64,000 nt of DNA from Oscillospiraceae bacterium (GTDB lineage: Bacteria > Bacillota > Clostridia > Oscillospirales > Ruminococcaceae), in NCBI GenBank assembly GCA_017848115.1, contig JAGAKZ010000021.1:52365-116364 (forward strand), in the 5' to 3' direction. Made by a program: the position numbers and the translations under genes. The notes beneath the pieces are model-generated. The model searched no databases. It saw only the letters and a list, made by a program, of their open reading frames with translations, and had not been told where the DNA came from. Positions 5,251 through 26,711 of the stretch are shown in pieces (the stretch's first letter is position 1; each line of letters opens with the position of its first letter).

Positions 5251-6696
5251 TCAAGAAAATTTTGCTGTTACATACTTCTGTTTTTTACTTTTAGGTTTTT
5301 CTGGAATTGTCAGTCGAAGCATTCCGCTTTCTACTAAAGGATGAATATATTTTGTCATGACATAAGCGATAGTCATACGATCTGAAAACAGTATTTCCAG
5401 TTCAGCACGACTTTTAGGCTGTGTACAAAACGCTAATATTTCTTTTGTTTCATCATCTTCCGGCACAAGCATATTAGATATTTTGTTATACAGAGTCACT
5501 CGGAATACACCACGGTCATCAACAAACACCGGTGCCGGGAGACCATATTCCTTCATTGCGTGAATGACAGTAGGAATACCGCTATAACGATTTTCGGTTT
5601 CTCCGATAATTTCTAATGCGTTTGCAATAAATGGATTTCTGGTATCAGCAGATACTTGTCCCAAACGATCAATTGTCATACGGCCATACAAACCTCCGGG
5701 ATTTTCAATTTCCATTCTGTCACTATACATTCTTATAGTAATGGGAGTAGATTCTGTATGAACGCTGTAATCCCGATGTACAAGTGAATTGATTACAAGC
5801 TCTCTTATTGCAACTATAGGATATTCTGTTCGGTCTGTTCTTTTACCGGTTACAGGATCAATAATAGTTGCTTCTTTCATATTTTTACGGATGAAATTCA
5901 TTGTATCCACAATCATTTGAGGAATTGTACCTTCAATTTTTTTGCTATCTATAAAACGTTCTCCAACAGCTCCTGTCACGCTCATTTCTGTTCCCGGAAC
6001 AGAAACAGCTGTAATGCAAAGTTGTGGAAAAAACGTTTGCGGATAAAGCGAAAACAACATAATTCCAGCAAGTGTTGGTGTTCCCTCATTAGTAAACCCC
6101 TGCAGATCGCAAAGTATTTCGTCAGATAAGTTTGCAAAATTAGGTTTCTTACTTTTTAGTTCCAATATATATTTTGCAAAATCTGTTGTTATAAGATGTT
6201 TTTTCTTTGCTCTTGGTACATCACGCAACTCGTCCTGCAATTTTTGTTTAAATGCTTCATAACTGTAAACTTCATATTCTGTCATTAATCTGTCGCCATC
6301 TGCAACACGTATATATGACCCTTTTAATCTGCCTTTACCTTTATAAAAACATGGCTTTGAAAAGTGATCAATTTCTTGAATTTCAGCACAAACCACAGTT
6401 TTACCATCGATTAAAGTAACCGTGCAGAGCGGACGTACCTCCGGTTCCATCTGTAAACTCTGCTCCATAATCTTTTTTTGTAAATCTGCAGCATCATAGA
6501 CACCACAAACCGTATAATTCTGTCGCTCGTCTACACCAAACAGAATCTTTCCGCCTCCCGGCTGATTTGAAAATGCAGACAACGTATCTGTGATTTTCGG
6601 ACAACCCTCCGCAGCCGCTTTAAGTTCTATATAATTACTCTCACATTGTTGTAATTGTATTTTTTTTACAAGTTCATAAAGTTCTTGCTCAAGCAT
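5251..6696 (-). CDS. AlbA_2 / ATP-binding transcriptional regulator (RecG-like C-terminal type)
   Basis: A 481-residue protein of the family annotated as putative DNA-binding or RecG-like regulators, of unsettled biochemical role. The N-terminal AlbA_2 (Schlafen-like) domain lies at about 10-130 and includes YIELKAAAEGCPKITDTLSA. The central region REL(V)INSLVHRDYS to IENPGGLYG, at about 300-350, matches the HATPase_c_4 domain. The C-terminus ends in a winged-helix-like segment. I chose the ATG at 6696, because GGGAGGCG sits seven bases before it; a GTG at 6711 lies inside that ribosome site. The upstream region contains inverted repeats that may be its own operator. Solitary gene 62 bases from fic. 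Confidence 0.82.
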   Translation of the reverse strand: MLEQELYELVKKIQLQQCESNYIELKAAAEGCPKITDTLSAFSNQPGGGKILFGVDERQNYTVCGVYDAADLQKKIMEQSLQMEPEVRPLCTVTLIDGKTVVCAEIQEIDHFSKPCFYKGKGRLKGSYIRVADGDRLMTEYEVYSYEAFKQKLQDELRDVPRAKKKHLITTDFAKYILELKSKKPNFANLSDEILCDLQGFTNEGTPTLAGIMLFSLYPQTFFPQLCITAVSVPGTEMSVTGAVGERFIDSKKIEGTIPQMIVDTMNFIRKNMKEATIIDPVTGKRTDRTEYPIVAIRELVINSLVHRDYSVHTESTPITIRMYSDRMEIENPGGLYGRMTIDRLGQVSADTRNPFIANALEIIGETENRYSGIPTVIHAMKEYGLPAPVFVDDRGVFRVTLYNKISNMLVPEDDETKEILAFCTQPKSRAELEILFSDRMTIAYVMTKYIHPLVESGMLRLTIPEKPKSKKQKYVTAKFS

Positions 6697-6728
6697 AATA
6701 TCGCCTCCCACTATTTAAATTATAAGAA

Positions 6729-6808
6729 TTTTATAAGAAAATGTCAAGTGAATTTCGCATAGTTTTTCGCATAATTTTCTTATAAAATTATATTTTTTCT
6801 TATAATTG
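6729..6808. repeat. Inverted and direct repeats upstream of the AlbA_2 gene
   Basis: TTTTATAAGAAAA (6729-6741) and its exact reverse complement TTTTCTTATAAAA (6775-6787) flank two copies of TTTCGCATA (6753-6761 and 6766-6774, period 13). A further TTTTTTCTTATAA follows at about 6796-6808. The block lies in the 295-base intergenic stretch between the AlbA_2 regulator and spoVT, so it could serve either. Binding is inferred, not shown. The rest of the stretch is AT-rich and holds no gene that I can see. Confidence 0.5.
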
Positions 6809-6991
6809 CGATTACATTCGTATAAAATTTGTAAAGCATATATTATTTACGAAAATTTATTTTAGAAGCGAAAAATCCTTAATTTAATTTTTTATATATT
6901 TGTTTGTATATTATTAACACAAAATGCAGACAATAAAAAAGCAGGCAGAAAAAATTCAAAAAAATTAAGTTATATATGGAGGTATTTCAAA

Positions 6992-7531
6992 ATGAAAGCT
7001 ACCGGTATTGTCAGAAGAATAGACGATCTTGGAAGGGTCGTTATCCCTAAAGAAATCAGACGCACTATGAGAATACGTGAGGGAGATCCTCTCGAAATAT
7101 ACACAAGCAATGACGGCGAAGTTATCTTCAAAAAATATTCTGCTATAAGTGAAATGTCCGAAAATGCGACTCAGGTTGCAGATATAATGGGAAAACTCGC
7201 AGGTTGTCCTGTTGTTATTTTCGACAGAGATCATGTTGTTGCAGTTTCAGGTGTTTCAAAGAAAGAATTTAACGAAAGACGTGTTTCTCCTGCTCTTGAA
7301 GATATCATTGAGAGCAGAAAGAATTATTTTAAGACCGAAAGTGACAGTCACAACGTTCTCCCGGTTGAAGGTATAGACAAGCCTGCAATAGCCTGTGCAC
7401 CGATAATATCATCAGGAGATGTTACAGGTGCAGTTGCATTTTTAGAAGAAGGAAACATAAAGACAGCTTCAGAATTGCAGATCTCACTCATTCAGGCAGC
7501 ATCTCAGTTTCTTGGAAGACAGGTAGAATAA
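6992..7531 (+). CDS. spoVT: SpoVT/AbrB family transcriptional regulator
   Basis: A 179-residue DNA-binding protein. The N-terminal swapped-hairpin AbrB domain spans residues 1-50, with the hallmark GIVRRIDDLGRVVIPKEIRR. A GAF-like sensory domain occupies about 55-178, as in stage V sporulation protein T. In Bacillus this protein tunes sigma-G-dependent genes in the forespore; in this organism it may act in sporulation or as a general transition-state regulator. The ATG at 6992 follows GGAGG with eight-base spacing. It stands alone; the next gene has its own promoter. Confidence 0.93.
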   Translation: MKATGIVRRIDDLGRVVIPKEIRRTMRIREGDPLEIYTSNDGEVIFKKYSAISEMSENATQVADIMGKLAGCPVVIFDRDHVVAVSGVSKKEFNERRVSPALEDIIESRKNYFKTESDSHNVLPVEGIDKPAIACAPIISSGDVTGAVAFLEEGNIKTASELQISLIQAASQFLGRQVE

Positions 7532-7545
7532 CAGGTACTTTCTCC

Positions 7546-7574
7546 TTGACTTTATAACTTAAATATGTTATGAT
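7546..7574 (+). promoter_or_regulatory. Predicted sigma-A promoter of ybaK
   Basis: TTGACT (7546-7551) and TATGAT (7569-7574) are separated by exactly 17 bases and lie just after the spoVT stop codon, 36 bases before the ybaK ATG. AAGGAG is present in front of the start. Confidence 0.65.
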
Positions 7575-7610
7575 TAGTCCGTAAAATTTTAAGTTATACA
7601 AGGAGATACT

Positions 7611-8090
7611 ATGGCTAAGGAACTAAAAACAAACGCAATGCGTTTTCTTGATAAAAATAAGATCAACTACGAAATAACAGTATACGACTGCCCTGAGTTT
7701 ATTGACGGTGCCACTGTTGCACGTAAACTCGGACAGCCAGAAGAGGAAACTTTTAAAACTCTTGTAGCACAAGGCAAAAGCGGAAACTACTACTGTTTTC
7801 TGATACCTGTACTTCTTGAGCTTGATATGAAAAAGGCGGCAAAAAGCGTCGGAGAAAAGTCTGTTGAACTTATAGCCGTTAAGGATATTACCAAGATCAC
7901 AGGATATGTGAGAGGTGGCTGTACTCCTATAGGAATGAAAAAACAGTTTGTTACTGTTGTTCACAATACAGCAGAAAAACTTTCACTGTTTTATATAAGC
8001 GGTGGCAGAATAGGTACACAGATACAACTTTCTCCGTCAGAACTTGTAGATGCTATAAGGGGAAGTTTTGCTGATATAGTGCTTGACTAA
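7611..8090 (+). CDS. ybaK: Cys-tRNA(Pro) deacylase, YbaK family
   Basis: Trans-editing enzyme that hydrolyses tRNA(Pro) mischarged with cysteine by prolyl-tRNA synthetase. The 159-residue length and the order of motifs fit the YbaK branch of the INS superfamily: MRFLDKNKINYEI near the N-terminus, the central segment KKAAKSVGEKSVEL, and GYVRGGCTPIGMKKQF, which holds the conserved GxxxGGxxPxG pattern. The ATG follows AAGGAG. The gene has its own promoter and ends at a strong hairpin. Confidence 0.93.
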   Translation: MAKELKTNAMRFLDKNKINYEITVYDCPEFIDGATVARKLGQPEEETFKTLVAQGKSGNYYCFLIPVLLELDMKKAAKSVGEKSVELIAVKDITKITGYVRGGCTPIGMKKQFVTVVHNTAEKLSLFYISGGRIGTQIQLSPSELVDAIRGSFADIVLD

Positions 8091-8098
8091 ATAAATTT

Positions 8099-8132
8099 GA
8101 GGCTGTTCTTTGCGAACAGCCTCTGTTTTTTA
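8099..8132 (+). terminator. Rho-independent terminator of ybaK
   Basis: GAGGCTGTTC (8099-8108) pairs perfectly with GAACAGCCTC (8114-8123) around a five-base loop, followed by TGTTTTTTT. It overlaps the end of the convergent membrane-protein gene. Confidence 0.92.
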
Positions 8133-8750
8133 ATGTACATCATGATAATGAACATTCTGTATTTCTATCGCTTGCTTTGAATCATATTGTTCAAGTGTTA
8201 TTTCTTCCGCTTTATATTTCTCATCAACGCAATAACACACACATACTTCTTTAAGCTCACAGTAAAGTTTTACATAGATTTTTCTGTCTTCTGCCCATTT
8301 AATTTCTGCGTCGGCGACACCATCAGTTATAGTAACGCCATCTATGATATCTTTTGAAAATAAAAATGCAACAGGACGTTTTATTTTTACAGTAGACAGA
8401 TGTATAGGATTATCGTACTCTATGATAATAGTTTTTCCGTCATACGAAGGATTGCATACTTTTCCTTCTTCAGTATATAAAAACGGGAAAAAGCAATCTT
8501 TGAACAAAATCGCACAAGCCAGAAACGTTAAAAGAGATTTTCTGTTATTGTGCCCTGTTTCTCTTTTCTTTATGATTCTTCTTGATATCAATACTGTGAT
8601 AAAAAGAATTCCGGAATACATAAATGGTTCTGAATATTTATCTATACCATTTATGTAATATGTGATGTCTGTTATATGAAAAAACAATTCACCTATAAAA
8701 ACTATTGCTACTGAGATATTGTAAATTAAATCTGCTTTTTTCATAAGCAT
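8130..8750 (-). CDS. Hypothetical membrane protein
   Basis: I do not recognise this 206-residue protein. About three hydrophobic helices lie in the N-terminal half (near residues 8-25, 42-55 and 72-90). The remaining 115 or so residues look like a polar beta-rich domain outside the membrane, with several Cys in the VKLYCELKEVCVCYCVD stretch. It starts nine bases after the M48 peptidase stop codon and so probably belongs to that operon; the start could be the ATG at 8750 or the one at 8744, and no clear ribosome site is visible. A link to the peptidase is only positional. Confidence 0.65.
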   Translation of the reverse strand: MLMKKADLIYNISVAIVFIGELFFHITDITYYINGIDKYSEPFMYSGILFITVLISRRIIKKRETGHNNRKSLLTFLACAILFKDCFFPFLYTEEGKVCNPSYDGKTIIIEYDNPIHLSTVKIKRPVAFLFSKDIIDGVTITDGVADAEIKWAEDRKIYVKLYCELKEVCVCYCVDEKYKAEEITLEQYDSKQAIEIQNVHYHDVH

Positions 8751-8759
8751 TTACCATAA

Positions 8760-10139
8760 CTATTTTCTGTACAGATTTTCCTTACCGCAGTATTCACAGA
8801 ATCGTGATGAAGCGGAGATTCTCTTACCGCAATGAGAACAATATACATCTTTATCAAAAAGTGAAGACAATATCTTATCGGGTTTGCGTTCGGCTTTTCT
8901 TCTTTCATTTACATTGTATATCTTGCTGTACTCACCGTTATCATACCATGTACGCAACTCTTTTGCACGCATAACTGTCCATGGGTGATTTTTGTAGAGT
9001 ACACTGAAAAGTTTCATAAGTTTATCAAAGAGATTGTTATCAAAGTTTTCAAACTCTACTGCCTGTTCAAGGAAGAGTTTATTATCTATTTCATCATAGT
9101 GACTCGGTGGATATCCTGACAGTTTTGCCATGACGGTGATAGCGGCATCAATATTTTGACACGCAAGAAGTCCTGCTCTGTCGGCGGTAAGTTCAGACAT
9201 TCTGTACCAGCGGTAAAGTAAAAGAACAACACCTTTTACAGCTATTTCTCCTATTCCGAGTGTAAGGTTTCCTACTATATTGGCAATATACGGAATGAAG
9301 TTTCCTATAGAGTGATAAAGCACATGCTGACTCTTGATATGACCGACTTCATGACCGAGTATAAAGAGAAGTTCATCATATGTAAGCAGACTCAGACATA
9401 TTCCCGAAATAACTATTATAGGCTTTGACGAACCTATAGTGCAGGCATTGAGTGAACCGGGAGCCACATAGAGCGGTGGCATCTCCTTTACGTCAAGAAC
9501 CTCGCATACGGTTTTCAGTGCATTATAAAGATATGGAAGATTTTTTTCGGTTACACGTATATTTGAACCGGTGTACTGTACTGTTACAAGTCGCTCAAAA
9601 TTGTATTCGGAGTACAGTTTCATTATCTTCTCTATAACCTTATTTGTATTCAGATTGTCAAGATAAGCCCTGTCTGTCGGATGCTCATACTCACTCGAAG
9701 AAATATTTGTAAATATTTTCTTATCCTGATAAAGTGGCTGCATTACCGCTTGTTCAAGCATATTGGTTATATAACTTTCATTGTTCATGAAAATATCATG
9801 AGCCGCCCTTCCTTTACTTGCAAATTCATCAAGTATAAACTGAATTCTCTTTTTGGTTATAACGTTCATACTGTTTACAGCAATGGAATTCGGAAGTGAA
9901 AATGCCTTTATAAGCTTATTTAACGGTGTTGTTTCCTGCATTGTAAGCTTACAGTACAGATAACAGTAGTGATAAATAAGTGCTGCCTGATTTTCAGATA
10001 TCTTGTTTTTGGCGAGAATATCATCAAGGTGTTTTTCTGAAAATTCACCGAAATAGTTATAATATTCTGCTATATCATAAAGCTCATCAAGTGATACTAC
10101 CTTTGATACAGCAGCAATGAGTACAGCTGTCATATTCAT
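8760..10139 (-). CDS. M48 family metallopeptidase with C-terminal zinc ribbon
   Basis: Zinc peptidase of the Ste24/HtpX type. The 459-residue protein carries HEVGH, with His263 and His267 as ligands and Glu264 as base; the third ligand probably lies in the ELTADRAGLLAC stretch. Hydrophobic segments around IPYIANIVGNLTLGIGEIAV suggest membrane association. The C-terminus has a double CxxC zinc ribbon, CSHCGKR...CEYCGKE. The N-terminal 200 residues are helical and unassigned. I chose the ATG at 10139, which overlaps the stop codon of the preceding small gene and has GGAGG eight bases upstream. A TTG at 10166 is less likely. Confidence 0.88.
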   Translation of the reverse strand: MNMTAVLIAAVSKVVSLDELYDIAEYYNYFGEFSEKHLDDILAKNKISENQAALIYHYCYLYCKLTMQETTPLNKLIKAFSLPNSIAVNSMNVITKKRIQFILDEFASKGRAAHDIFMNNESYITNMLEQAVMQPLYQDKKIFTNISSSEYEHPTDRAYLDNLNTNKVIEKIMKLYSEYNFERLVTVQYTGSNIRVTEKNLPYLYNALKTVCEVLDVKEMPPLYVAPGSLNACTIGSSKPIIVISGICLSLLTYDELLFILGHEVGHIKSQHVLYHSIGNFIPYIANIVGNLTLGIGEIAVKGVVLLLYRWYRMSELTADRAGLLACQNIDAAITVMAKLSGYPPSHYDEIDNKLFLEQAVEFENFDNNLFDKLMKLFSVLYKNHPWTVMRAKELRTWYDNGEYSKIYNVNERRKAERKPDKILSSLFDKDVYCSHCGKRISASSRFCEYCGKENLYRK

Positions 10140-10288
10140 TTGTTGTCCTCCTCGTCTACACCGCAACTTTTTATGTACAGTTCTTCTGCACTTTCCTTTT
10201 TAGCTCCAAAAAGTTCTTCTTTCTTTTTTTCATGCTCTGCCTTTTTGATAATGTCATCAATGTTCTGCAAATGCTTCAAAAAATTCAT
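10136..10288 (-). CDS. 50-residue charged micro-protein coupled to the M48 peptidase
   Basis: A short gene with an ATG at 10288 and a TGA at 10136-10138 that overlaps the M48 ATG (ATGA). GGAGG sits eight bases before the start. The product is Lys- and Glu-rich, begins MNFLKHLQNIDDIIKK and continues into a likely amphipathic or coiled helix. The good ribosome site and the stop/start overlap argue that it is real and translationally coupled to the peptidase. No function is recognised; it could be a regulator or partner of the peptidase. Confidence 0.65.
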   Translation of the reverse strand: MNFLKHLQNIDDIIKKAEHEKKKEELFGAKKESAEELYIKSCGVDEEDNK

Positions 10289-10464
10289 ATCATTGTCCTC
10301 CTGATTCTTTTGATAATAGTTTCATTATTTTATGATACTAAAAAAATTATAACCGTTTTAACAGTATCTTGTCAACAAAATTCACAAAAAAATAATATAA
10401 ATAATTTGCAATTAGTTGTGTGATGTGTTACAATTATCGTACAACAACAAAGGAGGAGAAAAAT

Positions 10465-10953
10465 ATGATGTTGACATTGTATCATGGAAGTAATGTAGTT
10501 GTTGAAAAACCCGCTCTTATTAAACAAAACAGATTTCTTGACTTTGGTTATGGTTTCTATACAACTACAAATGAAGAACAGGCAAAAGATTTTGCTGTAA
10601 AAGTAACTAAAAAACGAAAAGAAGGTACAGCTACCCTGAATATATATGAAATAGATGAAAAAAAAGCTTTCGAAGAATGTAGTCTTCTGAACTTTGATGA
10701 ACCAGATGAAAAATGGCTCGATTTTGTTGCAGAAAACAGACAAGGCACATATCATGGAGAAAAGTACGACCTTGTATATGGACCTGTTGCAAATGATGAT
10801 GTTTACAGAACAATTACTTTGTATATGACAGGAATACTCTCAAAAACTCAGACACTTGAAGCACTGAAAATAAGAAAATTATACAATCAACTTGTTTTCA
10901 AATCTGAAAAATCTCTTGAATATATAAAATTTCAGCGGAGGATTTTTATATGA
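10465..10953 (+). CDS. DUF3990 protein, ADP-ribosyltransferase-like fold
   Basis: First gene of a four-gene overlapping operon. The 163-residue protein begins with LTLYHGS, then [18 protein letters not shown] at about residues 33-50, and has [14 protein letters not shown] at about 100-113. These segments fit DUF3990 and line up with the His-Tyr-acidic pattern of ADP-ribosyltransferases (HGS, YxFYTT, and an acidic or hydrophobic strand), which suggests NAD-dependent transfer. Activity is not shown. I chose the ATG at 10465, nine bases after AGGAGG; the frame runs upstream without a better site. Its TGA overlaps the next ATG. A homologous gene lies at 26232-26711. Confidence 0.8.
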
Positions 10954-11189
10954 ACAAAAATCAATTTAACTCACTTCTTACACTTATTGTTCCTCAGATA
11001 ATTGATAAAATAACAGAAAACAGTAATATTACCGAGATAAATGCAATAAACCAATTTTATCATTCCAGACTTTATAGTGAACTATCAGATGAAGAAACTA
11101 AGTTATGGCATTACAGTCCATTACTTTTATATACTATGTATCAGGATGAACTACTTACAGGAACTTATGATTATCCGGAGGAGGCATAA
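10950..11189 (+). CDS. Small unknown protein of the DUF3990 operon
   Basis: A 79-residue protein, unrecognised. It is predicted to be mostly helical, acidic, and rich in Tyr and Leu near its C-terminus ([21 protein letters not shown]). Its ATG overlaps the TGA of the DUF3990 gene, with GGAGG inside the end of that gene, and its stop lies three bases before the DUF3791 ATG. The position between two co-occurring families suggests an adaptor or antitoxin role, which is inference only. Confidence 0.72.
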
Positions 11190-11192
11190 ATA

Positions 11193-11414
11193 ATGAGCAG
11201 AGAAAGTGAATTTCTTATATATTGCATGGAACGTTATCGATATTATAAAAATCTCACCGGAAAAGAAGTAGCAGAACTTTTTGAAAAAAGTGATGTTCAG
11301 ACATATATAATCAACTGTTTTGGTGCACTTCATACCGTAGGAGAAGAATATCTTATAAACGATATAGAAGAATACATTAACAGAGACAATAATTCAAAAG
11401 GAGCACTTTTATGA
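11193..11414 (+). CDS. DUF3791 family protein
   Basis: A 73-residue protein matching the small DUF3791 family, which is commonly found beside DUF3990. The pattern is EFLIYCMERYRYYKN, then KEVAELFEKSDVQTYI, then a C-terminal helix with EEYLINDIEEYI. It is the same layout as residues 5-62 of the protein at 25805-26251, which also sits beside DUF3990. It starts three bases after the preceding stop, with GGAGGAG upstream, and its own TGA overlaps the nucleotidyltransferase ATG. Binding to the DUF3990 protein is a reasonable guess. Confidence 0.78.
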   Translation: MSRESEFLIYCMERYRYYKNLTGKEVAELFEKSDVQTYIINCFGALHTVGEEYLINDIEEYINRDNNSKGALL

Positions 11415-12181
11415 CACAACAGGAAATGAACATACTTGTTCCAAAAAAACTTCAGGAAATCGAAAAAGAATACAATGTAACCATTCTTCTTGCAGTAGAA
11501 TCAGGTAGCAGAGCGTGGGGATTTGCTTCGCCTGACAGTGACTTTGATGTAAGATTTATCTACAAACGTCCGAAAAATGAATATCTGAAACTAAATACAG
11601 ACCGTGATGTAATAGAGCTTCCGGTTGATGATACATGGGATGTAAACGGCTGGGATCTTGATAAGACTCTGAAACTTCTTTTCAAATCAAATCCTACATT
11701 ATTTGAATGGATAAACTCTCCTTTATGCTATTACAAAACAGATTTTACCGATAAAATAAAACCTGTTTTAAATGAATATTTTTCTGTAAAAAACACTGTA
11801 TATCATTATTTGAATACAGCCCGTAATAATATGAAGATATATCTGTCAGGTGAAAAAATACACCCCAAAAAATATTTCTATGCTTTAAGACCTGTTCTTG
11901 CTTGTCTATGGGTACTCGAACACCAGACTCCTCCACCTGTTTTGTTTAGCGAACTCACAAAAACAATGCTCCCCGATAATCTCCTTCCCTCACTCGACTA
12001 CCTTCTCGACATAAAGATGAATAATCCCGAAAAGACAGAAATAGCACCGGTCAGGGATATTGATGAGTTTTTGCGTCAGCATATTGAAGAAATCGACAAG
12101 GTAATGGAAAGTCTTCAGAGAAGAGAATATAAAAGCTGGGACTTACTGAATGAATTTTTTATAAATGAAATTGCACAGTGA
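11411..12181 (+). CDS. Nucleotidyltransferase, RlaP/YcgL family
   Basis: A 256-residue polymerase-beta-fold nucleotidyltransferase. The active-site signature SGSRAWGFASPDSDFDVR lies at residues 31-48: Gly32-Ser33 and the metal-binding Asp44 and Asp46. The family (PF10127, COG3541) includes proteins linked to RNA ligase repair operons, but no ligase is present here. It would transfer a nucleotide to an RNA, protein or small molecule; the substrate is unknown. Its ATG overlaps the DUF3791 stop by four bases, so it is the last gene of a coupled operon that ends at a hairpin inside its own stop codon. Confidence 0.87.
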   Translation: MTQQEMNILVPKKLQEIEKEYNVTILLAVESGSRAWGFASPDSDFDVRFIYKRPKNEYLKLNTDRDVIELPVDDTWDVNGWDLDKTLKLLFKSNPTLFEWINSPLCYYKTDFTDKIKPVLNEYFSVKNTVYHYLNTARNNMKIYLSGEKIHPKKYFYALRPVLACLWVLEHQTPPPVLFSELTKTMLPDNLLPSLDYLLDIKMNNPEKTEIAPVRDIDEFLRQHIEEIDKVMESLQRREYKSWDLLNEFFINEIAQ

Positions 12182-12198
12182 AAAACTGTGCTTTTTTT
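12173..12198 (+). terminator. Terminator of the DUF3990 operon
   Basis: GCACAG (12173-12178) pairs with CTGTGC (12186-12191), followed by seven T. The TGA of the nucleotidyltransferase lies in the loop. Confidence 0.85.
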
Positions 12199-12204
12199 AT
12201 TATA

Positions 12205-12239
12205 AAGCAAAAAACAAGCCACCACTTGAAGTGATGGCT
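12205..12239 (-). terminator. Terminator of the DUF3810 gene
   Basis: On the minus strand AGCCATCACTT pairs with AAGTGGTGGCT (12217-12239) around a minimal loop, followed by TGTTTTTTG. It faces the terminator of the convergent operon, with only a few bases between them. Confidence 0.75.
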
Positions 12240-12275
12240 ATTAATTTACAAAATTTAAACGTCAAAAGTACATCA

Positions 12276-13508
12276 TCAATAGAGTTTCCCTTCAAAATAC
12301 TGCAAAAGCAACAGAACAACTCCGCCATAATTATTTTCTTTGAGAATATCCGCCTGCGTCTTCCAGCCAAAATCAGCCGTTGTTTCTATAACTTCATTTA
12401 CAGAAGGCAGATTATCAATAGGATGTGAATCGCTTTCGTATACCTGTTCTTCTATTTCATCAGATTGATTATCTATCATATATACTTTTTTACTTAAATA
12501 CACAATTTCTCCAAACAATTCAATAAACACCTGTTCTCGTAATTCAAAGGCTTTTTTTCGTTCTTCTTTTGGTAAGCTTATGATATAATCAAAAGATGGA
12601 ATTGAACCATTATTTTCAAGTTCAATATATATTCTATCCGTTATAGTAAAGTAATCATTACAAATCCAGTTATACATAGAAAGAAAAGCCGATAAACGAA
12701 GATACGGATTTTCACTTCTGCTAAGTGTAAGCTGTGAAATAAAATTTGCTTCACTTTCCTTGTAATATCCCATATGATGACACATTTCATGTGATAACAA
12801 TACAGGCATATGAAGCGGTCCAACGTACTTTGAATATGTCATTTCCATTGTAAAAGGATATGTATATCCTCCGATATTCATTCTTTCAAGAATATCAGAA
12901 CAAAAAGCTACCTTTAACTCCGGATAATATTTATCAAGTCTTGAAAACTCGTCAGATGAATCACGCATAGCCGTTTCTATCAGTTCCATATATTCTTCTT
13001 TTGTCGGAAACGTAACTTTGCCATCTTCTGAAATTTCTATTTCTTCTGCAGCCTGATTTGCACCGTTTACAATATAAGTATAAAGTGCCATAACTTCTTC
13101 ATCTTTATACACCTTTCTCTGCTCAGATTCGCCTTTTCCAAGCACGGTTCCGCAAAAAGGTACATACCATGTAGGCATATATACAAACACAAGAGCCGTA
13201 AAAGCAACCAGCAGTGTTTTATAGAATCCTTTACAGAAACTACGGTATTTCTGTTTTTTACGTAAAAATATCAGAAGAATAAGAAATACAACAGACAGAA
13301 CAACTAAAACTGCACCAAGATACATCATTATTTCTCCGATTGCAAACGGGACAAGGGCGCTTACAAATCCTATACCATCAGCGATATAACGGTATATATT
13401 ATCGGTATACCAGTCACAGACAGACGGCGAAAGCGTCATAAGCCACATAAGAAATGTCAGTATCAGCAGTATAATAACCACCCAAAAAGTGCGTGATTTT
13501 TTTCTCAT
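12276..13508 (-). CDS. DUF3810 membrane protein with HExxH zinc motif
   Basis: A 410-residue protein. Three hydrophobic helices lie at about 8-25, 48-82 and 95-112. The remaining 290 or so residues carry HEMCH (His240, Glu241, His244) followed by KESEANF, which looks like a gluzincin peptidase centre with a downstream Glu ligand. DUF3810 is an uncharacterised family common in Clostridia. A membrane-bound peptidase facing the outside is inferred. The ATG is preceded by GAGGAGA. It stands alone between convergent and divergent neighbours. Confidence 0.82.
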   Translation of the reverse strand: MRKKSRTFWVVIILLILTFLMWLMTLSPSVCDWYTDNIYRYIADGIGFVSALVPFAIGEIMMYLGAVLVVLSVVFLILLIFLRKKQKYRSFCKGFYKTLLVAFTALVFVYMPTWYVPFCGTVLGKGESEQRKVYKDEEVMALYTYIVNGANQAAEEIEISEDGKVTFPTKEEYMELIETAMRDSSDEFSRLDKYYPELKVAFCSDILERMNIGGYTYPFTMEMTYSKYVGPLHMPVLLSHEMCHHMGYYKESEANFISQLTLSRSENPYLRLSAFLSMYNWICNDYFTITDRIYIELENNGSIPSFDYIISLPKEERKKAFELREQVFIELFGEIVYLSKKVYMIDNQSDEIEEQVYESDSHPIDNLPSVNEVIETTADFGWKTQADILKENNYGGVVLLLLQYFEGKLY

Positions 13509-13610
13509 AATAATCTCTCCTCATTAATTTCCTTTAAGAACGATAAAATATTCTGTACATATTATAACATTATTCTACTCATACAATCAAGTATTTTCAC
13601 AAAAGAGTAT

Positions 13611-13785
13611 ATTACACTCAGGAAAATTTTATATCACAAAAATTACAGTCAAACTAAATCACTTAAAAAATATTACATAAAAATTAACTCTGAAATACAA
13701 TCCAACATCAAACTATATACAATTTGCATATTTTATTGATTTTTAAAGTTGCAGATATTATAATTTAACCATAGAAACAAATCAA
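13611..13785 (+). repeat. Duplicated leader, copy 1
   Basis: This 175-base segment before the first VWA gene recurs at 15666-15840 with no net gap and about eight mismatches by my count. It holds the promoter. The adjoining 13509-13610 stretch contains only AT-rich sequence and the divergent start of the DUF3810 gene. Confidence 0.85.
13736..13764 (+). promoter_or_regulatory. Predicted sigma-A promoter of VWA gene 1
   Basis: TTGATT (13736-13741), a 17-base spacer and a perfect TATAAT (13759-13764), 54 bases before the ATG. The same elements recur before VWA gene 2. Confidence 0.75.
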
Positions 13786-13818
13786 TTATTTTTACATACT
13801 TGAAAGGATGGTTATATT

Positions 13819-15540
13819 ATGAAAAATAATATTTTAAAATGCATACTTATATCAACTCTTTTAATCTCAGCTTTTACTTCATGTGGTGATGAGGCCAAAA
13901 ATTCCATGGCAAACAGTTCATCACAAGCAGAACCATCACGTTCTGATGATTCTAAATCTGAAAATTCACATAATGACGAATTCAAATTAGAGATGAAGAA
14001 TTCTGATGAATCTGACGATGATATATCATATTCTCCTGATTATGATGACGGTGCGTCATACTCGCCCGATAGCAATATATCATATTCACCGAGTGCTAAT
14101 GACAGCGACATATCATATTCAACAAGCCCTGACAGTTCTTATGACTATTATGGTTACGATGAAGAATACTCGGAATTTGTAGAAAACACTTTCAAATCCG
14201 TTTTGGCAAACCCGCTCTCCACTTTTTCTTCAGATGTTGACACTGCATCATATTCAACTGTAAGAAGAATGATAAACGATTATGGTTTTGTCTATGATGC
14301 AAATGCAGTAAGAATAGAAGAAATGATAAACTATTTTGACTATAACTACGCACCACCGACAGATGATGCTTTTTCTGTAACAACAGAAATGTCAGAATGT
14401 CCGTGGAACACCAGTAATAAACTGCTTTCGATAGGAGTAAAAGGCAAGGAAATAGAAACTGACCGTATTCCGTCAAATATAGTATTTCTGCTTGACGTAT
14501 CGGGGTCTATGTATTCGGATGATAAACTTCCGCTTATGGTTGAGGCATTCTGTATGCTTACTGAAAATCTTAATGAAAACGACAGAGTTTCAATTGTAAC
14601 ATATGCAGGAGGTGACGCCGTTTTACTTACAGGAACTCCGGGAAATGAATATGCAGAAATTTCCTCTGTGCTTCATTCTCTTGAAGCAAGCGGTTCTACA
14701 AACGGCGCAGCAGGTATAAATACCGCATACGAACTTGCAGAAAAATATTTTATAAAAGGAGGTAATAACAGAGTTATCCTCGCAACTGACGGTGACCTTA
14801 ACGTAGGTGTTTCTTCTGTCGAAGAACTTGAAGAACTTATTACAGAAAAAAGAGAATCAGGTGTATATCTCTCAGTTCTCGGATTTGGCACCGGAAATAT
14901 AAAGGATAACAGAATGGAAACTCTCGCAGACAACGGCAACGGAAACTATGCTTACATTGACAGCATTTCAGAAGCCCGTAAAACTCTTGTCGAAGAAATG
15001 GGCGGAACACTCTTCACAATAGCAAAGGACGTAAAATTTCAGGTAGAGTTCAATCCTCAGTACGTATCCGAATATCGCCTTGTAGGATACGAAAACAGAC
15101 TTATGAACGACCAGGATTTTTACGATGACACCAAAGATGCCGGAGAAATAGGTTCAGGACATACAGTAACCGCACTTTATGAAATTGTTCCTGTTGACAG
15201 TGAACTACCGCTCAAATATCAGGCAGACGAAACCGCACCGACATCAGAATTTACAGACGAATGGCTCACAGTAAGCGTAAGCTACAAAGAACCTGACTCT
15301 GACAAAAGCAGTATACTGAAGTTCCCTGTCGGCAAAGACCACATAACAGACTTCCCGTCTGAAAATATGCAGTTTGCATCATGTGTTGCCGAATTTGGTA
15401 TGCTCTTGCGTGAAAGCGAATATGCAGGAAATATTACATATGACGATATTCTGACTACTCTTGAAGGGCTTGATTGCACAAGCAACGACAAGTACAAAAA
15501 AGAATTTACAGAACTTGTGAAAATAGTTTCTGAAAATTAA
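13819..15540 (+). CDS. Von Willebrand A domain lipoprotein, YfbK-like (copy 1)
   Basis: A 573-residue surface lipoprotein. The lipobox AFTSC ends at about residue 21. A low-complexity Ser/Asp/Tyr linker of about 90 residues follows, with repeats of the type ISYSP. Next comes the YfbK/vWF N-terminal domain (about 125-215), including LSTFSSDVDTASYSTVRRM. The VWA domain (about 218-390) has a MIDAS DVSGS, so divalent metal and a protein ligand are expected. A C-terminal domain of the DUF3520 type contains VEFNPQYVSEYRLVGYENR. The second copy, 333 bases downstream, is nearly identical from the VWA domain on. Ligand and role are unknown. Confidence 0.9.
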   Translation: MKNNILKCILISTLLISAFTSCGDEAKNSMANSSSQAEPSRSDDSKSENSHNDEFKLEMKNSDESDDDISYSPDYDDGASYSPDSNISYSPSANDSDISYSTSPDSSYDYYGYDEEYSEFVENTFKSVLANPLSTFSSDVDTASYSTVRRMINDYGFVYDANAVRIEEMINYFDYNYAPPTDDAFSVTTEMSECPWNTSNKLLSIGVKGKEIETDRIPSNIVFLLDVSGSMYSDDKLPLMVEAFCMLTENLNENDRVSIVTYAGGDAVLLTGTPGNEYAEISSVLHSLEASGSTNGAAGINTAYELAEKYFIKGGNNRVILATDGDLNVGVSSVEELEELITEKRESGVYLSVLGFGTGNIKDNRMETLADNGNGNYAYIDSISEARKTLVEEMGGTLFTIAKDVKFQVEFNPQYVSEYRLVGYENRLMNDQDFYDDTKDAGEIGSGHTVTALYEIVPVDSELPLKYQADETAPTSEFTDEWLTVSVSYKEPDSDKSSILKFPVGKDHITDFPSENMQFASCVAEFGMLLRESEYAGNITYDDILTTLEGLDCTSNDKYKKEFTELVKIVSEN

Positions 15541-15550
15541 CCCCTGAAAT

Positions 15551-15612
15551 AAACCGTATACTGTTTCTGAAATATCCCACCGGAAACGGCATACGGTTTA
15601 TATTTTTTCTAC
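15551..15612 (+). terminator. Hairpin with conserved loop, copy 1 (end of VWA gene 1)
   Basis: AAACCGTAT (15551-15559) pairs with ATACGGTTT (15591-15599) and GTTTC with GAAAC further in, followed by a T-rich tract. The loop region holds GTTTCTGAAATATCCCAC, identical in the copies at 17465 and 18299. Confidence 0.85.
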
Positions 15613-15665
15613 TGTATACAAATTTATGTTGTAATATTTATTTACACTTTTTCATTCTGAATTTA

Positions 15666-15840
15666 ATTACACTCAGGAAAATTATATATCACAAAAATTA
15701 CAGCAAAGCTAAATCACTTAAAAAATATTACATAGAAATTAACTCTGAAATACAATCCAGCATCAAACTATATACAATTTGCATATTTTATTGATTTTTA
15801 AAGTTGCAAATATTATAATTTAACCATAGAAAGAAATCAA
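15666..15840 (+). repeat. Duplicated leader, copy 2
   Basis: Second copy of the 175-base segment found at 13611-13785, placed identically before the second VWA gene. Together with the terminator it accounts for most of the 332-base gap between the two VWA genes; no other gene is seen in the gap. Confidence 0.85.
15791..15819 (+). promoter_or_regulatory. Predicted sigma-A promoter of VWA gene 2
   Basis: TTGATT (15791-15796), 17 bases, TATAAT (15814-15819), as in copy 1. Confidence 0.75.
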
Positions 15841-15872
15841 ACATATTTACATATACGAAAGGATGTTTTACT

Positions 15873-17456
15873 ATGAAAAAGAATATTTTAAAATGCACTC
15901 TTATATCAACCCTTATAATCTCATCATTTACTTCATGCGGAGACGAAATGTCCCAGGAAATGAGTTATACAAACTCTATAAAATCTGACAGCAGTATAGC
16001 TTATGATTATGCTACAGAAGAAACAGCAGACGATTTTATTGCAAACAACAGTACAATCACAAATACTGAAGAGTATTCAGAAATCACCGAAAATGATTTC
16101 AGATCTGTAAGTACAAATCCGCTCTCTACTTTTTCAGCAGATGTAGATACCGCATCATATGCAAATGTAAGAAGAATGATAAATGATTACGGAACAGTAG
16201 TTAATCCGGATGCAGTACGAATCGAAGAAATGATAAACTACTTTGATTACAACTACGCTCCACCGGAAGATGAAGCATTTTCAGTAACAACAGAAATGAT
16301 TGAATGTCCGTGGAATACAAGCAACAAACTGCTTTCAATCGGAGTAAAAGGTAAGGAAATAGAAACTGACCGTATTCCGTCAAATATAGTATTTCTGCTT
16401 GATGTATCAGGTTCAATGCACTCGGAAGATAAACTTCCGCTTATGGTTGAAGCATTTTGTATGCTCGCTGAAAACCTTACAGAAAACGACCGTATTTCAA
16501 TCGTAACATATGCAGGAAATGAGTCTGTTCTGCTGACAGGAACTCCGGGAAATGATTATGAAGTGATTTCATCTGCATTGTACTCATTGGAAGCAGGCGG
16601 TTCAACAAACGGTGCAGCAGGTATACAGACAGCATATGAGTTAGCAGAAAAATATTTTATAAAAGGAGGTAATAACAGAGTTATCCTTGCAACAGACGGT
16701 GACCTTAACGTAGGCGTTTCGTCAGTTGATGAACTCGAAAAGCTTATCACTGAAAAGAGAGAAACAGGTGTGTATCTTTCAGTCCTCGGATTTGGTACAG
16801 GAAATATAAAGGATAACAAAATGGAAACTCTCGCAGACAATGGCAACGGAAACTATGCTTATATTGACAGCATTTCAGAAGCCCGTAAAACTCTTGTTGA
16901 AGAAATGGGCGGAACACTCTTCACAATAGCCAAAGACGTAAAATTTCAGGTAGAGTTCAACCCTCAGTACGTATCCGAATATCGCCTTGTAGGATACGAA
17001 AACAGACTTATGAACGACCAGGATTTTTACGATGACACAAAAGATGCCGGAGAAATAGGTTCAGGACACACTGTAACCGCACTCTATGAAATAACTCCTG
17101 TTGGTAATGAGATCCCACTAAAATATCAACCGGAAGTGACAGAAGAAACAATACCGGCATCAGAATTTACAGACGAATGGCTTACAGTAAGCGTAAGCTA
17201 CAAAGAACCCGATTCTGACGAAAGCAGTATACTGAAGTTCCCTGTCGGCAAAGACCACATAACGGACTTCCCAACCGAAAATATGCAGTTTGCATCATGT
17301 GTTGCCGAATTTGGTATGCTCTTGCGTGAAAGCAAATATTCAGGTAATATTACATATAATGACATCTTAAACACTCTCTACAGTCTTGATTGTACAAGCG
17401 ACGACAAGTACAAACAGGAATTTGCAGAACTCGTAAAAATAGTTTCCGAAAGCTAA
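15873..17456 (+). CDS. Von Willebrand A domain lipoprotein, YfbK-like (copy 2)
   Basis: A 527-residue paralogue of the preceding gene. It has the lipobox SFTSC, a much shorter linker (about 50 residues, without the ISYSP repeats), and then the same three domains: vWF N-terminal, VWA with DVSGS, and DUF3520-like. Long runs of the VWA and C-terminal regions are identical or nearly so at DNA level to copy 1, whereas the N-terminal linkers differ. This points to recent tandem duplication or gene conversion. GAAAGGATG precedes the ATG. The two proteins may anchor on the same partner but expose it at different distances from the membrane. Confidence 0.9.
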   Translation: MKKNILKCTLISTLIISSFTSCGDEMSQEMSYTNSIKSDSSIAYDYATEETADDFIANNSTITNTEEYSEITENDFRSVSTNPLSTFSADVDTASYANVRRMINDYGTVVNPDAVRIEEMINYFDYNYAPPEDEAFSVTTEMIECPWNTSNKLLSIGVKGKEIETDRIPSNIVFLLDVSGSMHSEDKLPLMVEAFCMLAENLTENDRISIVTYAGNESVLLTGTPGNDYEVISSALYSLEAGGSTNGAAGIQTAYELAEKYFIKGGNNRVILATDGDLNVGVSSVDELEKLITEKRETGVYLSVLGFGTGNIKDNKMETLADNGNGNYAYIDSISEARKTLVEEMGGTLFTIAKDVKFQVEFNPQYVSEYRLVGYENRLMNDQDFYDDTKDAGEIGSGHTVTALYEITPVGNEIPLKYQPEVTEETIPASEFTDEWLTVSVSYKEPDSDESSILKFPVGKDHITDFPTENMQFASCVAEFGMLLRESKYSGNITYNDILNTLYSLDCTSDDKYKQEFAELVKIVSES

Positions 17457-25804: not shown

Positions 25805-26251
25805 TCAATCAACCAATATCTCATTGTATTGATAACATGCTTTGATATAATCCCTTGACTGATAGAAAAAATCAGTATTATAGTTTGAAATTGCATCACT
25901 GAACATCGAATCATACACTTCACAAAGCGTATCTATTATATCATCGGTATACACATCCTGAATAAGTCTTGTATAAACTTTTCCTATTGACCAGTAATCA
26001 GGAACAGTATATCTGCAATCTGATACATTATCAAAATCACCCTCCGTGATTTCACACATTTCCATAAATACATCGGCTGTTTTAGCGATAGGTTCACAGT
26101 GCAATACGTCGGCTCTTTTATAGATATGAGCAATTCTTTCTTTGCCAAGTTGTTTTACTACATCTGAGCGCTTTAATTTTTTTTCTCTGCCGATATATTC
26201 AATCAGACTACAGGTGAAAAATAAATCATAATCAAACGCCATATACATCAT
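25805..26251 (-). CDS. DUF3791-like protein with C-terminal extension
   Basis: A 148-residue protein. Residues of about 5-62 (DLFFTCSLIEYIGREKKLKRSDVV to ADVFMEM) follow the same helical pattern as the DUF3791 protein at 11193, including the short helix-turn after the aromatic N-terminal helix. About 85 further residues (WSIGKVYTRLIQDVYTD onward) have no family that I know. It overlaps the upstream DUF3990 gene by up to 20 bases; the start could be 26251 or the ATG at 26242, which has a better-spaced AAAGGA. Pairing with DUF3990 again supports a functional unit. Confidence 0.7.
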   Translation of the reverse strand: MMYMAFDYDLFFTCSLIEYIGREKKLKRSDVVKQLGKERIAHIYKRADVLHCEPIAKTADVFMEMCEITEGDFDNVSDCRYTVPDYWSIGKVYTRLIQDVYTDDIIDTLCEVYDSMFSDAISNYNTDFFYQSRDYIKACYQYNEILVD

Positions 26252-26711
26252 ATCCTTTCACAAATTTTAACGTTGTCAAGGCTTTTGCAGTATGAAAACT
26301 TATCTGATGTGTAGGTTTCTTAAATCGAGCCAATTCCCTGAATGCTGTTCTTGAAATATTTCCATCGATAAAATCCTGAACGTAGTTAAAGATAGTATCG
26401 TCTGCCATTGGTCCTTCTACTATATCATAATCGTGTGCTTTACCAAGTCTGCAATCAACAATAAAATCAAGCCATTCTTCTGTCATAGTTTCAAACTTTT
26501 TTATTTTCAGAGCAGGGTTTTCAGTATATGAATATTCACTGAGATACCCCGATATCTGATAACGTGTTGCCCATTTGATAGCCTGATCTTTAAACAATGT
26601 GCAGTAGAAACCATAATAAAAATCCTTATTGTATCGTGCAATTCTTATTTCGGGAAATTCAACTATCTGAGTGCTTCCATGATATAATATCGTCGGCATA
26701 TATACCTCCAA
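26232..26711 (-). CDS. DUF3990 protein, ADP-ribosyltransferase-like fold (second locus)
   Basis: A 159-residue homologue of the protein at 10465. The same landmarks appear in order: LYHGSTQIVEFPE at the N-terminus, FYYGFYCTLFKDQAIKWA at about 29-46, and YDIVEGPMADDTIFNYV at about 97-113. The rest is divergent, so this is not a recent duplication. The ATG follows GGAGGTATAT. It forms a two-gene unit with the DUF3791-like gene, lacks the nucleotidyltransferase of the other locus, and ends at its own terminator. Confidence 0.78.
   Translation of the reverse strand: MEVYMPTILYHGSTQIVEFPEIRIARYNKDFYYGFYCTLFKDQAIKWATRYQISGYLSEYSYTENPALKIKKFETMTEEWLDFIVDCRLGKAHDYDIVEGPMADDTIFNYVQDFIDGNISRTAFRELARFKKPTHQISFHTAKALTTLKFVKGYDVYGV

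Follow-up and report, generated by a model that had tools for sequence, protein, structure and literature searches.

The first three of four packed genes at positions 10465 to 12181 of the window, i.e., DUF3990, a small partner (S) and DUF3791, make up a genuine three-gene module, which recurs and is already listed as a phage-defence candidate. Here, the window is the whole stretch of DNA that was analysed (64,000 nucleotides from an Oscillospiraceae bacterium). Judged by their sequences, the three genes are one unit that travels and is widespread, and we consider it fairly probable that they encode a mobile toxin-antitoxin module, in which a predicted ADP-ribosyltransferase (ART) would be held by a bipartite antitoxin. 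The fourth gene, an RlaP nucleotidyltransferase, appears to be an independent gene that shares the trio's promoter. Beyond the existing catalogue entry for the trio, what is new here is the bipartite, fusible and paralogous partner, the asymmetry of loss and the exclusion of RlaP. The unity of the trio, the paralogy and fusion of S and DUF3791, the catalytic-type residues, the asymmetric loss, the contexts and the separability of RlaP are all read from the sequence comparisons reported below. The features of the locus are as follows.

10406..10434, plus strand: promoter-like site TTGCAA-17-TACAAT, based on consensus match and conservation in the sister genome G010
10445..11388, plus strand: 944-base block with the trio, missing from G010
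10465..10953, plus strand: DUF3990 gene, 162 aa; PF13151 (E 2.5e-52), PDC-M13A (3.3e-73); predicted ADP-ribosyltransferase toxin
10950..11189, plus strand: S (small partner), 79 aa; PDC-M13B (3.2e-28); probably a diverged DUF3791 paralogue
11193..11414, plus strand: DUF3791 gene, 73 aa; PF12668 (5.8e-21), PDC-M13C (5.6e-30)
11411..12181, plus strand: RlaP nucleotidyltransferase, 256 aa; PF10127 (1.1e-81); neighbour, judged to lie outside the module
12173..12198, plus strand: hairpin resembling a terminator, with seven T in a row; overlaps the stop codon of RlaP

An earlier note on this DNA had described four packed plus-strand genes with 4-base overlaps and a single terminator, which is borne out by the coordinates and the hairpin. 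Both DUF3990/S and DUF3791/RlaP overlap by ATGA, and a 3-base gap (11190-11192) separates S from DUF3791. The motif residues that had been named are likewise in place: H7, G8, Y32, T34, G106 and A109 of DUF3990 occur in 61/61 aligned homologues, D102 in 59/61 and D111 in 58/61, and the fourth gene carries SGSRAWGF...SDFD. Pfam gives no family above its cut-off for S. The promoter-like site is weak when taken alone (14 such sites counted vs. 10.5 in shuffles); it is kept in G010, where it stands before RlaP alone. On the minus strand, an M48 peptidase gene flanks the cluster on the left and a DUF3810 gene flanks it on the right.

What is notable about the locus is not the tight packing itself but the recurrence of its first three genes. 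A scan of named genomes with the DUF3990 alignment confirmed at least 556 relatives, of which the best 80 loci were analysed. DUF3990 is accompanied by both S and DUF3791 in 77 of these best 80 loci (of at least 556), and in the remaining 3 the contig ends inside the cluster. The gene order DUF3990-S-DUF3791 is found in 72 of the best 80 loci (of at least 556) and the order S-DUF3791-DUF3990 in 3, which are Bacteroidota according to the record title. The same 80 include one tandem of modules (L065) and one DUF3990-S-DUF3791 locus with DUF3990 split in two pieces (L105). Among 29 loci from relatives, 8 show DUF3990-S-DUF3791, 4 DUF3791-DUF3990-S and 6 the PDC-M10 form described below; 1 holds DUF3791-DUF3990 and is cut by the contig end, and 10 hold DUF3990 without a recognised partner (mostly the longer subfamily, one cut). 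For 30 viral contigs, S-like and DUF3791-like partners are present in 16 and DUF3990 stands alone in 11.

The three proteins also share their history. Over 74 loci, their pairwise protein distances correlate with Spearman coefficients of 0.65-0.68, compared to 0.16-0.19 for the highest of 300 permutations per protein pair. A putative toxin with an adjacent, co-inherited small partner is the arrangement found in type II toxin-antitoxin systems. The DUF3990 tree mixes phyla (ten by record titles, with many rows being metagenome bins). The nearest kin of the window's DUF3990 are from Blautia and Fusobacterium naviforme (71-73% identity), and those same-genus copies that were compared show 29-43% identity. 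Since the closest kin are thus found in other lineages, we conclude that the module moves between lineages.

The phage defence candidate PDC-M13 of PADLOC-DB 2.0.0 has the same gene set and compact layout, and the window locus is a member, i.e., DUF3990 matches PDLC04436 (3.3e-73) and the small genes match PDLC04440 (3.2e-28) and PDLC04445 (5.6e-30), all contiguous. PDC-M13 contains no RlaP model. The part of PMC13356809 that deals with rumen genomes places PDC-M13 among the more abundant defence candidates there (3324 detected). In the literature covered, with preprints and most subscription papers outside its scope, we found no functional study of DUF3990, DUF3791 or PDC-M13/M10/M42 and no described mechanism for PDC-M13, its toxin or its partners.

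The surroundings of the module are often mobile or linked to restriction. On a Moraxella osloensis plasmid, the order is HsdM-DUF3990-S-DUF3791-HsdS with a 4-base overlap at every junction, and on a second plasmid the module precedes HsdS. Within the sequence examined, Hsd relatives lie near 3 of the best 80 loci (of at least 556); HsdM is 78 bases upstream in L086, and HsdR overlaps DUF3791 by 4 bases in L062. The contexts include 73 plasmid records; on plasmids, the module can follow parA plus a short gene, or precede a gene for a zeta toxin or for HipA. Neighbouring genes match 254 PADLOC families (150 proteins) vs. 65 in a control (133 proteins), where the counts refer to redundant models and not to proteins. 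The neighbour set comprises 150/158 genes from 33 of the best 80 loci (of at least 556), and the control 133 genes from 20 places in 14 genomes, which were hand-chosen and not random. Such embedding is said to be how PDCs were found, and most PDCs await validation, as stated in excerpts of PMC12988326. The mobile and restriction-linked context fits a role in defence and stabilisation, and the module probably both defends against phages and stabilises mobile elements.

The two small partners occur not only side by side. Pairs on Bacteroides plasmids (pBF9343; WP_004295329, WP_005647329) have both partner domains together with a toxin of the trio's family. Unlike in the window, S and DUF3791 are joined there in one protein that is encoded upstream of DUF3990, and zeta or HipA genes lie next to the pair. 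This fusion, a single protein of 147-149 aa, is found upstream of DUF3990 on plasmid pBF9343 and on two phage scaffolds. Using models built without them, the fusions score 45-49 bits with S and 65-66 bits with DUF3791, and Pfam's DUF3791 reports 1e-18 in both fusions tested. Relatives of the fusion are present in 59 plasmid records, many of which are near copies. The reverse fusion DUF3791::S occurs in two loci (L228, L240); a partner of this form has no match on plasmids, and the scans of viral contigs contain neither S::DUF3791 nor DUF3791::S.

Fusion aside, S and DUF3791 are probably distant paralogues that are linked through intermediates. The third gene of L065 scores with both the S and the DUF3791 model (27.8 and 20.4 bits), as does an intermediate in L175 (27.6 and 13.7 bits); bridging proteins were excluded from these models, and the best of 2000 shuffles reaches 9.6 bits with the DUF3791 model. 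In 6 loci, Pfam's DUF3791 is above its cut-off on both flanks of DUF3990. With the DUF3791 model, the window's S has a negative score, and real S proteins do no better than shuffled ones. Homology by profile comparison alone was considered and set aside as weak (hhalign P 0.017 for small sets, 6.6e-4 over 31 columns), such that the paralogy claim is made because of the intermediates and the Pfam matches at the S position. Unlike many type II antitoxins, neither S nor DUF3791 has a DNA-binding Pfam domain above the cut-off.

We also compared how toxin and partners are lost in 391 sampled genomes of the class, of which 80 have DUF3990, 62 DUF3791 and 23 RlaP. Entered were 137/141 DUF3990 rows (leaving out 4 weak rows below the cut-off), 99/104 DUF3791 rows (leaving out 5 below the cut-off, including two at the S position), 29/29 RlaP rows and 15/18 M10B rows (leaving out 3 partial ones). 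Within 1 kb of the 60 intact short DUF3990 genes, the Pfam or M10B model finds DUF3791 or M10B in 54 cases; our own models add a partner in L255 and L260, and an S-like gene in L256 was recognised by eye. For 3/60 (L257, L258, L259), there is no recognised partner. That is, the toxin has a partner in 57/60 cases.

Seen from the partner's side, the picture differs. The 90 DUF3791 sites comprise 48 with intact DUF3990, 9 with a broken or partial one and 33 with none. At 7/9 broken sites, S and DUF3791 are intact beside a split or truncated DUF3990; in L270 DUF3791 is split as well, and no S was found in L273. For the 33 sites without DUF3990 (31 read, 2 unread), a DUF3990 remnant is kept between the partners in three (L233, L234, L236), the other sites being 9 S-DUF3791 pairs or fusions, 5 cut by contig ends and 14 with lone DUF3791. 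Thus, intact S and DUF3791 are found at 19 sites where DUF3990 is broken (7), a remnant (3) or absent (9), i.e., S and DUF3791 sites have an intact toxin in 48/67 cases. Partner without toxin (19 vs. 48) therefore contrasts with toxin without partner (3 vs. 57) at a Fisher p-value of 7e-4, or 2e-3 when partners are assigned by models only, both values being rough because the loci are not independent. Such asymmetric loss is what one would expect of a toxin and its antidote. The 15 M10B sites have an intact DUF3990 in 11 cases, a broken one in 1 and none in 2, and 1 is cut. One of the two sites without DUF3990 is an orphan PDC-M10B in the window's own genome (L262, contig C55, 1528-2001), with no recognisable DUF3990 gene nearby.

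At 16/90 DUF3791 sites, two of them unread, neither S nor DUF3990 was detected, so DUF3791 may also serve other purposes. In L227, L232, L239, L242, L245, L246 and L250, DUF3791 scores strongly and stands alone, with no S or DUF3990 seen nearby.

H7, Y32 and Q142 are invariant in 61/61 aligned DUF3990 homologues and agree with the H-Y-[E/D/Q] pattern of the ADP-ribosyltransferase superfamily, where the third residue is assigned from conservation. The same pattern, written H-Y-[E,D,Q], is quoted for CmdT in a passage of PMC11618068, and DUF3990 is placed in Pfam's ART clan in a section of PMC7955679. Sequence searches of the PDB with DUF3990, alone or as a profile, returned no ART, and ART-PolyVal and PARP models match some DUF3990 members at E 0.004 to 0.24 only. 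The ART fold is a prediction from the Pfam clan and the conserved residues.

Toxicity, neutralisation, chemistry, target and trigger are what we infer for the DUF3990 module, as follows. Free DUF3990 would move ADP-ribose from NAD onto an essential target and thereby harm the cell. S and DUF3791, as two related small domains, would constitute one bipartite antitoxin, which is separate here and fused elsewhere, and which, when made together with DUF3990, would keep the toxin inactive. DUF3990 might be freed by infection, by failure of a neighbouring restriction system or by loss of the element. This turns DUF3990, DUF3791 and an unnamed small protein into a testable model of one toxin and one bipartite antitoxin. 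The model points to co-expressing both small proteins rather than one, RlaP can be left out, and the natural S::DUF3791 fusion should ease purification and structure work.

RlaP is a clear member of its family (PF10127, 274.6 bits with a family cut-off of 23) and represents a separate system from the trio. A model of the window's copy finds no RlaP in the best 80 trio loci (of at least 556) or in the 29 relatives' loci, and among 29 RlaP matches in the 391 genomes the only one within 3 kb of DUF3990 is the window itself. In 61 relatives, RlaP is found in 8 genomes and DUF3990 in 18, with both in G000, G008 and G010. The latter has the same locus without the trio: the same promoter and the same RlaP ribosome-binding site precede an RlaP that is 99% identical, and the DUF3990 genes of G010 sit on other contigs. 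Window positions 5443-10444 match G010 at 98.96% over 5002 bases and 11389-16899 at 95.7% over 5513; the two stretches adjoin there except for one base, with 10445-11388 missing. Residues 66-73 of DUF3791 and its stop codon lie in the DNA that is common to both. With a G+C content of 0.309, the trio block is poorer in G+C than the 5 kb on either side (0.353 and 0.345). This low value together with the distant nearest kin would favour a gain in the window over a loss from G010, but the end of DUF3791 falls in common DNA in either case. Since the trio separates RlaP from its promoter, RlaP would be last in the transcript by position and not by function.

The earlier note had taken the four genes with their two nucleotide-transferring folds as one system, either a toxin together with what neutralises it or a small module for defence, and had named separation of the genes in most relatives as evidence to the contrary. 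Separation is what we find for RlaP, where distribution and G010 both speak against membership; DUF3990, S and DUF3791 stay together, and for them the proposal stands as judged from sequence. A four-gene system was rejected since RlaP does not recur with the trio and the site in G010 is empty. If all four genes nevertheless formed one functional operon, RlaP might modify or repair what the ADP-ribosyltransferase touches, in the style of nucleotidyltransferase antitoxins. We regard this as very improbable: the ATGA overlap with DUF3791, the common terminator and a weak NCBIfam match to the MntA adenylyltransferase antitoxin (E 0.0076, 16.1 bits, cut-off 60) are set against the missing recurrence in both locus sets, the single co-occurrence near DUF3990, the G010 locus, where the same promoter is followed by RlaP alone, and the largely different genomes in which RlaP and DUF3990 reside. 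RlaP has no strong PADLOC match, and its sequence search of the PDB gave no ART hit. In six genomes (G145, G170, G439, G348, G144, G444), RlaP adjoins a second frame of about 330-390 aa that weakly matches the RlaP model and is a possible real RlaP partner.

For the trio itself, an anti-phage sensor-effector in the manner of CmdTAC, as opposed to an addiction module, has a substantial chance, yet one clearly below even; S or DUF3791 would then sense a phage product and switch DUF3990 on. Both the listing as PDC-M13 and the embedding in type I restriction operons point in this direction. CmdTAC, which senses capsid protein, likewise has three components, namely an ART toxin with the H-Y-[E,D,Q] pattern, an antitoxin and a chaperone, according to the portions of PMC11618068 describing it. 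However, CmdC is SecB-like, which S and DUF3791 are not according to Pfam, and no Pfam match to a SecB-like chaperone is found among the window's four genes. No model of PD-T4-9, the PADLOC entry for CmdTAC, matched, and DUF3990 gave no PADLOC match to the CmdTAC toxin. Kinship to CmdTAC by sequence was discarded, as the PADLOC families listed (E up to 5) include none for CmdTAC. The sensor-effector reading also overlaps the toxin-antitoxin model, as antitoxin and sensor can be the same protein. DarTG, an ART toxin with a neutraliser, is implicated in phage defence as well; it shares these two components with the trio, but DarG is a macrodomain hydrolase, whereas S and DUF3791 are small and have no macrodomain match (Pfam). 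That DUF3990 is a non-toxic housekeeping or regulatory ADP-ribosyltransferase with S and DUF3791 as its subunits seems unlikely to us. An obligate complex would give equally tight co-inheritance, but the distribution is patchy (80/391 genomes), extends to plasmids and viral contigs and includes several copies per genome, and DUF3990 is often damaged beside intact partners. Furthermore, Serratia Rhs5, which is predicted to be a T6SS effector in the account given by part of PMC4524185, has DUF3990 as its C-terminal domain.

The toxin-antitoxin model, which we prefer, may extend to a sister form of the module in the window.

25805..26251, minus strand: PDC-M10 partner, 148 aa; PDC-M10B (1.4e-59); DUF3791-like N half, S-like C half
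26232..26711, minus strand: second DUF3990 gene; PDC-M10A (1.8e-74); sister form of the module

PDC-M10 resembles the trio in combining DUF3990 with a partner (one copy in the window, 25805-26711), but this partner is a single protein of about 148 aa. The N half of the window's PDC-M10B scores 11.6 bits with the DUF3791 model and its C half only 1.7 bits; the S-like C half is clear in the homologue of L154 (20.5 bits). The DUF3990 proteins of PDC-M10 form one clade (13 rows, support 99/96). More tentatively, and with a chance clearly below even, all DUF3990 systems could be one ADP-ribosyltransferase toxin-antitoxin superfamily, whose antitoxin arose from a duplicated small helical domain and whose paralogues divide holding and sensing. 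If so, one paralogue would hold the toxin and the other would sense a phage protein or the state of the restriction complex; the module would fit hsd operons, plasmids and prophages in any order or fused, it would be a second defence line that fires upon restriction failure, and PDC-M10, PDC-M13 and the plasmid forms would be one system.

The window's PDC-M10 copy lies 15 kb from the trio, and contig C41 (L003) of the same genome has DUF3791-DUF3990-S, i.e., one genome shows three arrangements of the module. The viral contigs L183, L184 and L185 carry DUF3791, DUF3990 and two successive S-like genes. Two trio copies with 172 bits each are found about 5.2 kb apart on a 10.6-kb contig (L006 and L023; G004, contig C45), which are a repeat or an assembly artefact.

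For long intact DUF3990 genes, 46/51 are without DUF3791 within 1 kb. In L018 (915-2202, minus strand) and L030, DUF3990 is fused behind a helix-turn-helix, followed in L018 by an overlapping 143-aa gene; this is a different partner type for a longer DUF3990 subfamily. L013 (708-2007, minus strand) encodes a DUF3990 protein of 224 aa, whose gene overlaps that of a 213-aa partner. Upstream of the DUF3990 gene in L258 (1520-2221, minus strand), which has neither S nor DUF3791, is a 59-aa gene that looks ribbon-helix-helix-like by eye, and an amidase-like gene adjoins. Elsewhere in the window, positions 13819-17456 encode two secreted-looking paralogues in tandem (573 and 527 aa); they share long stretches that are nearly identical, and each is preceded by repeated DNA.
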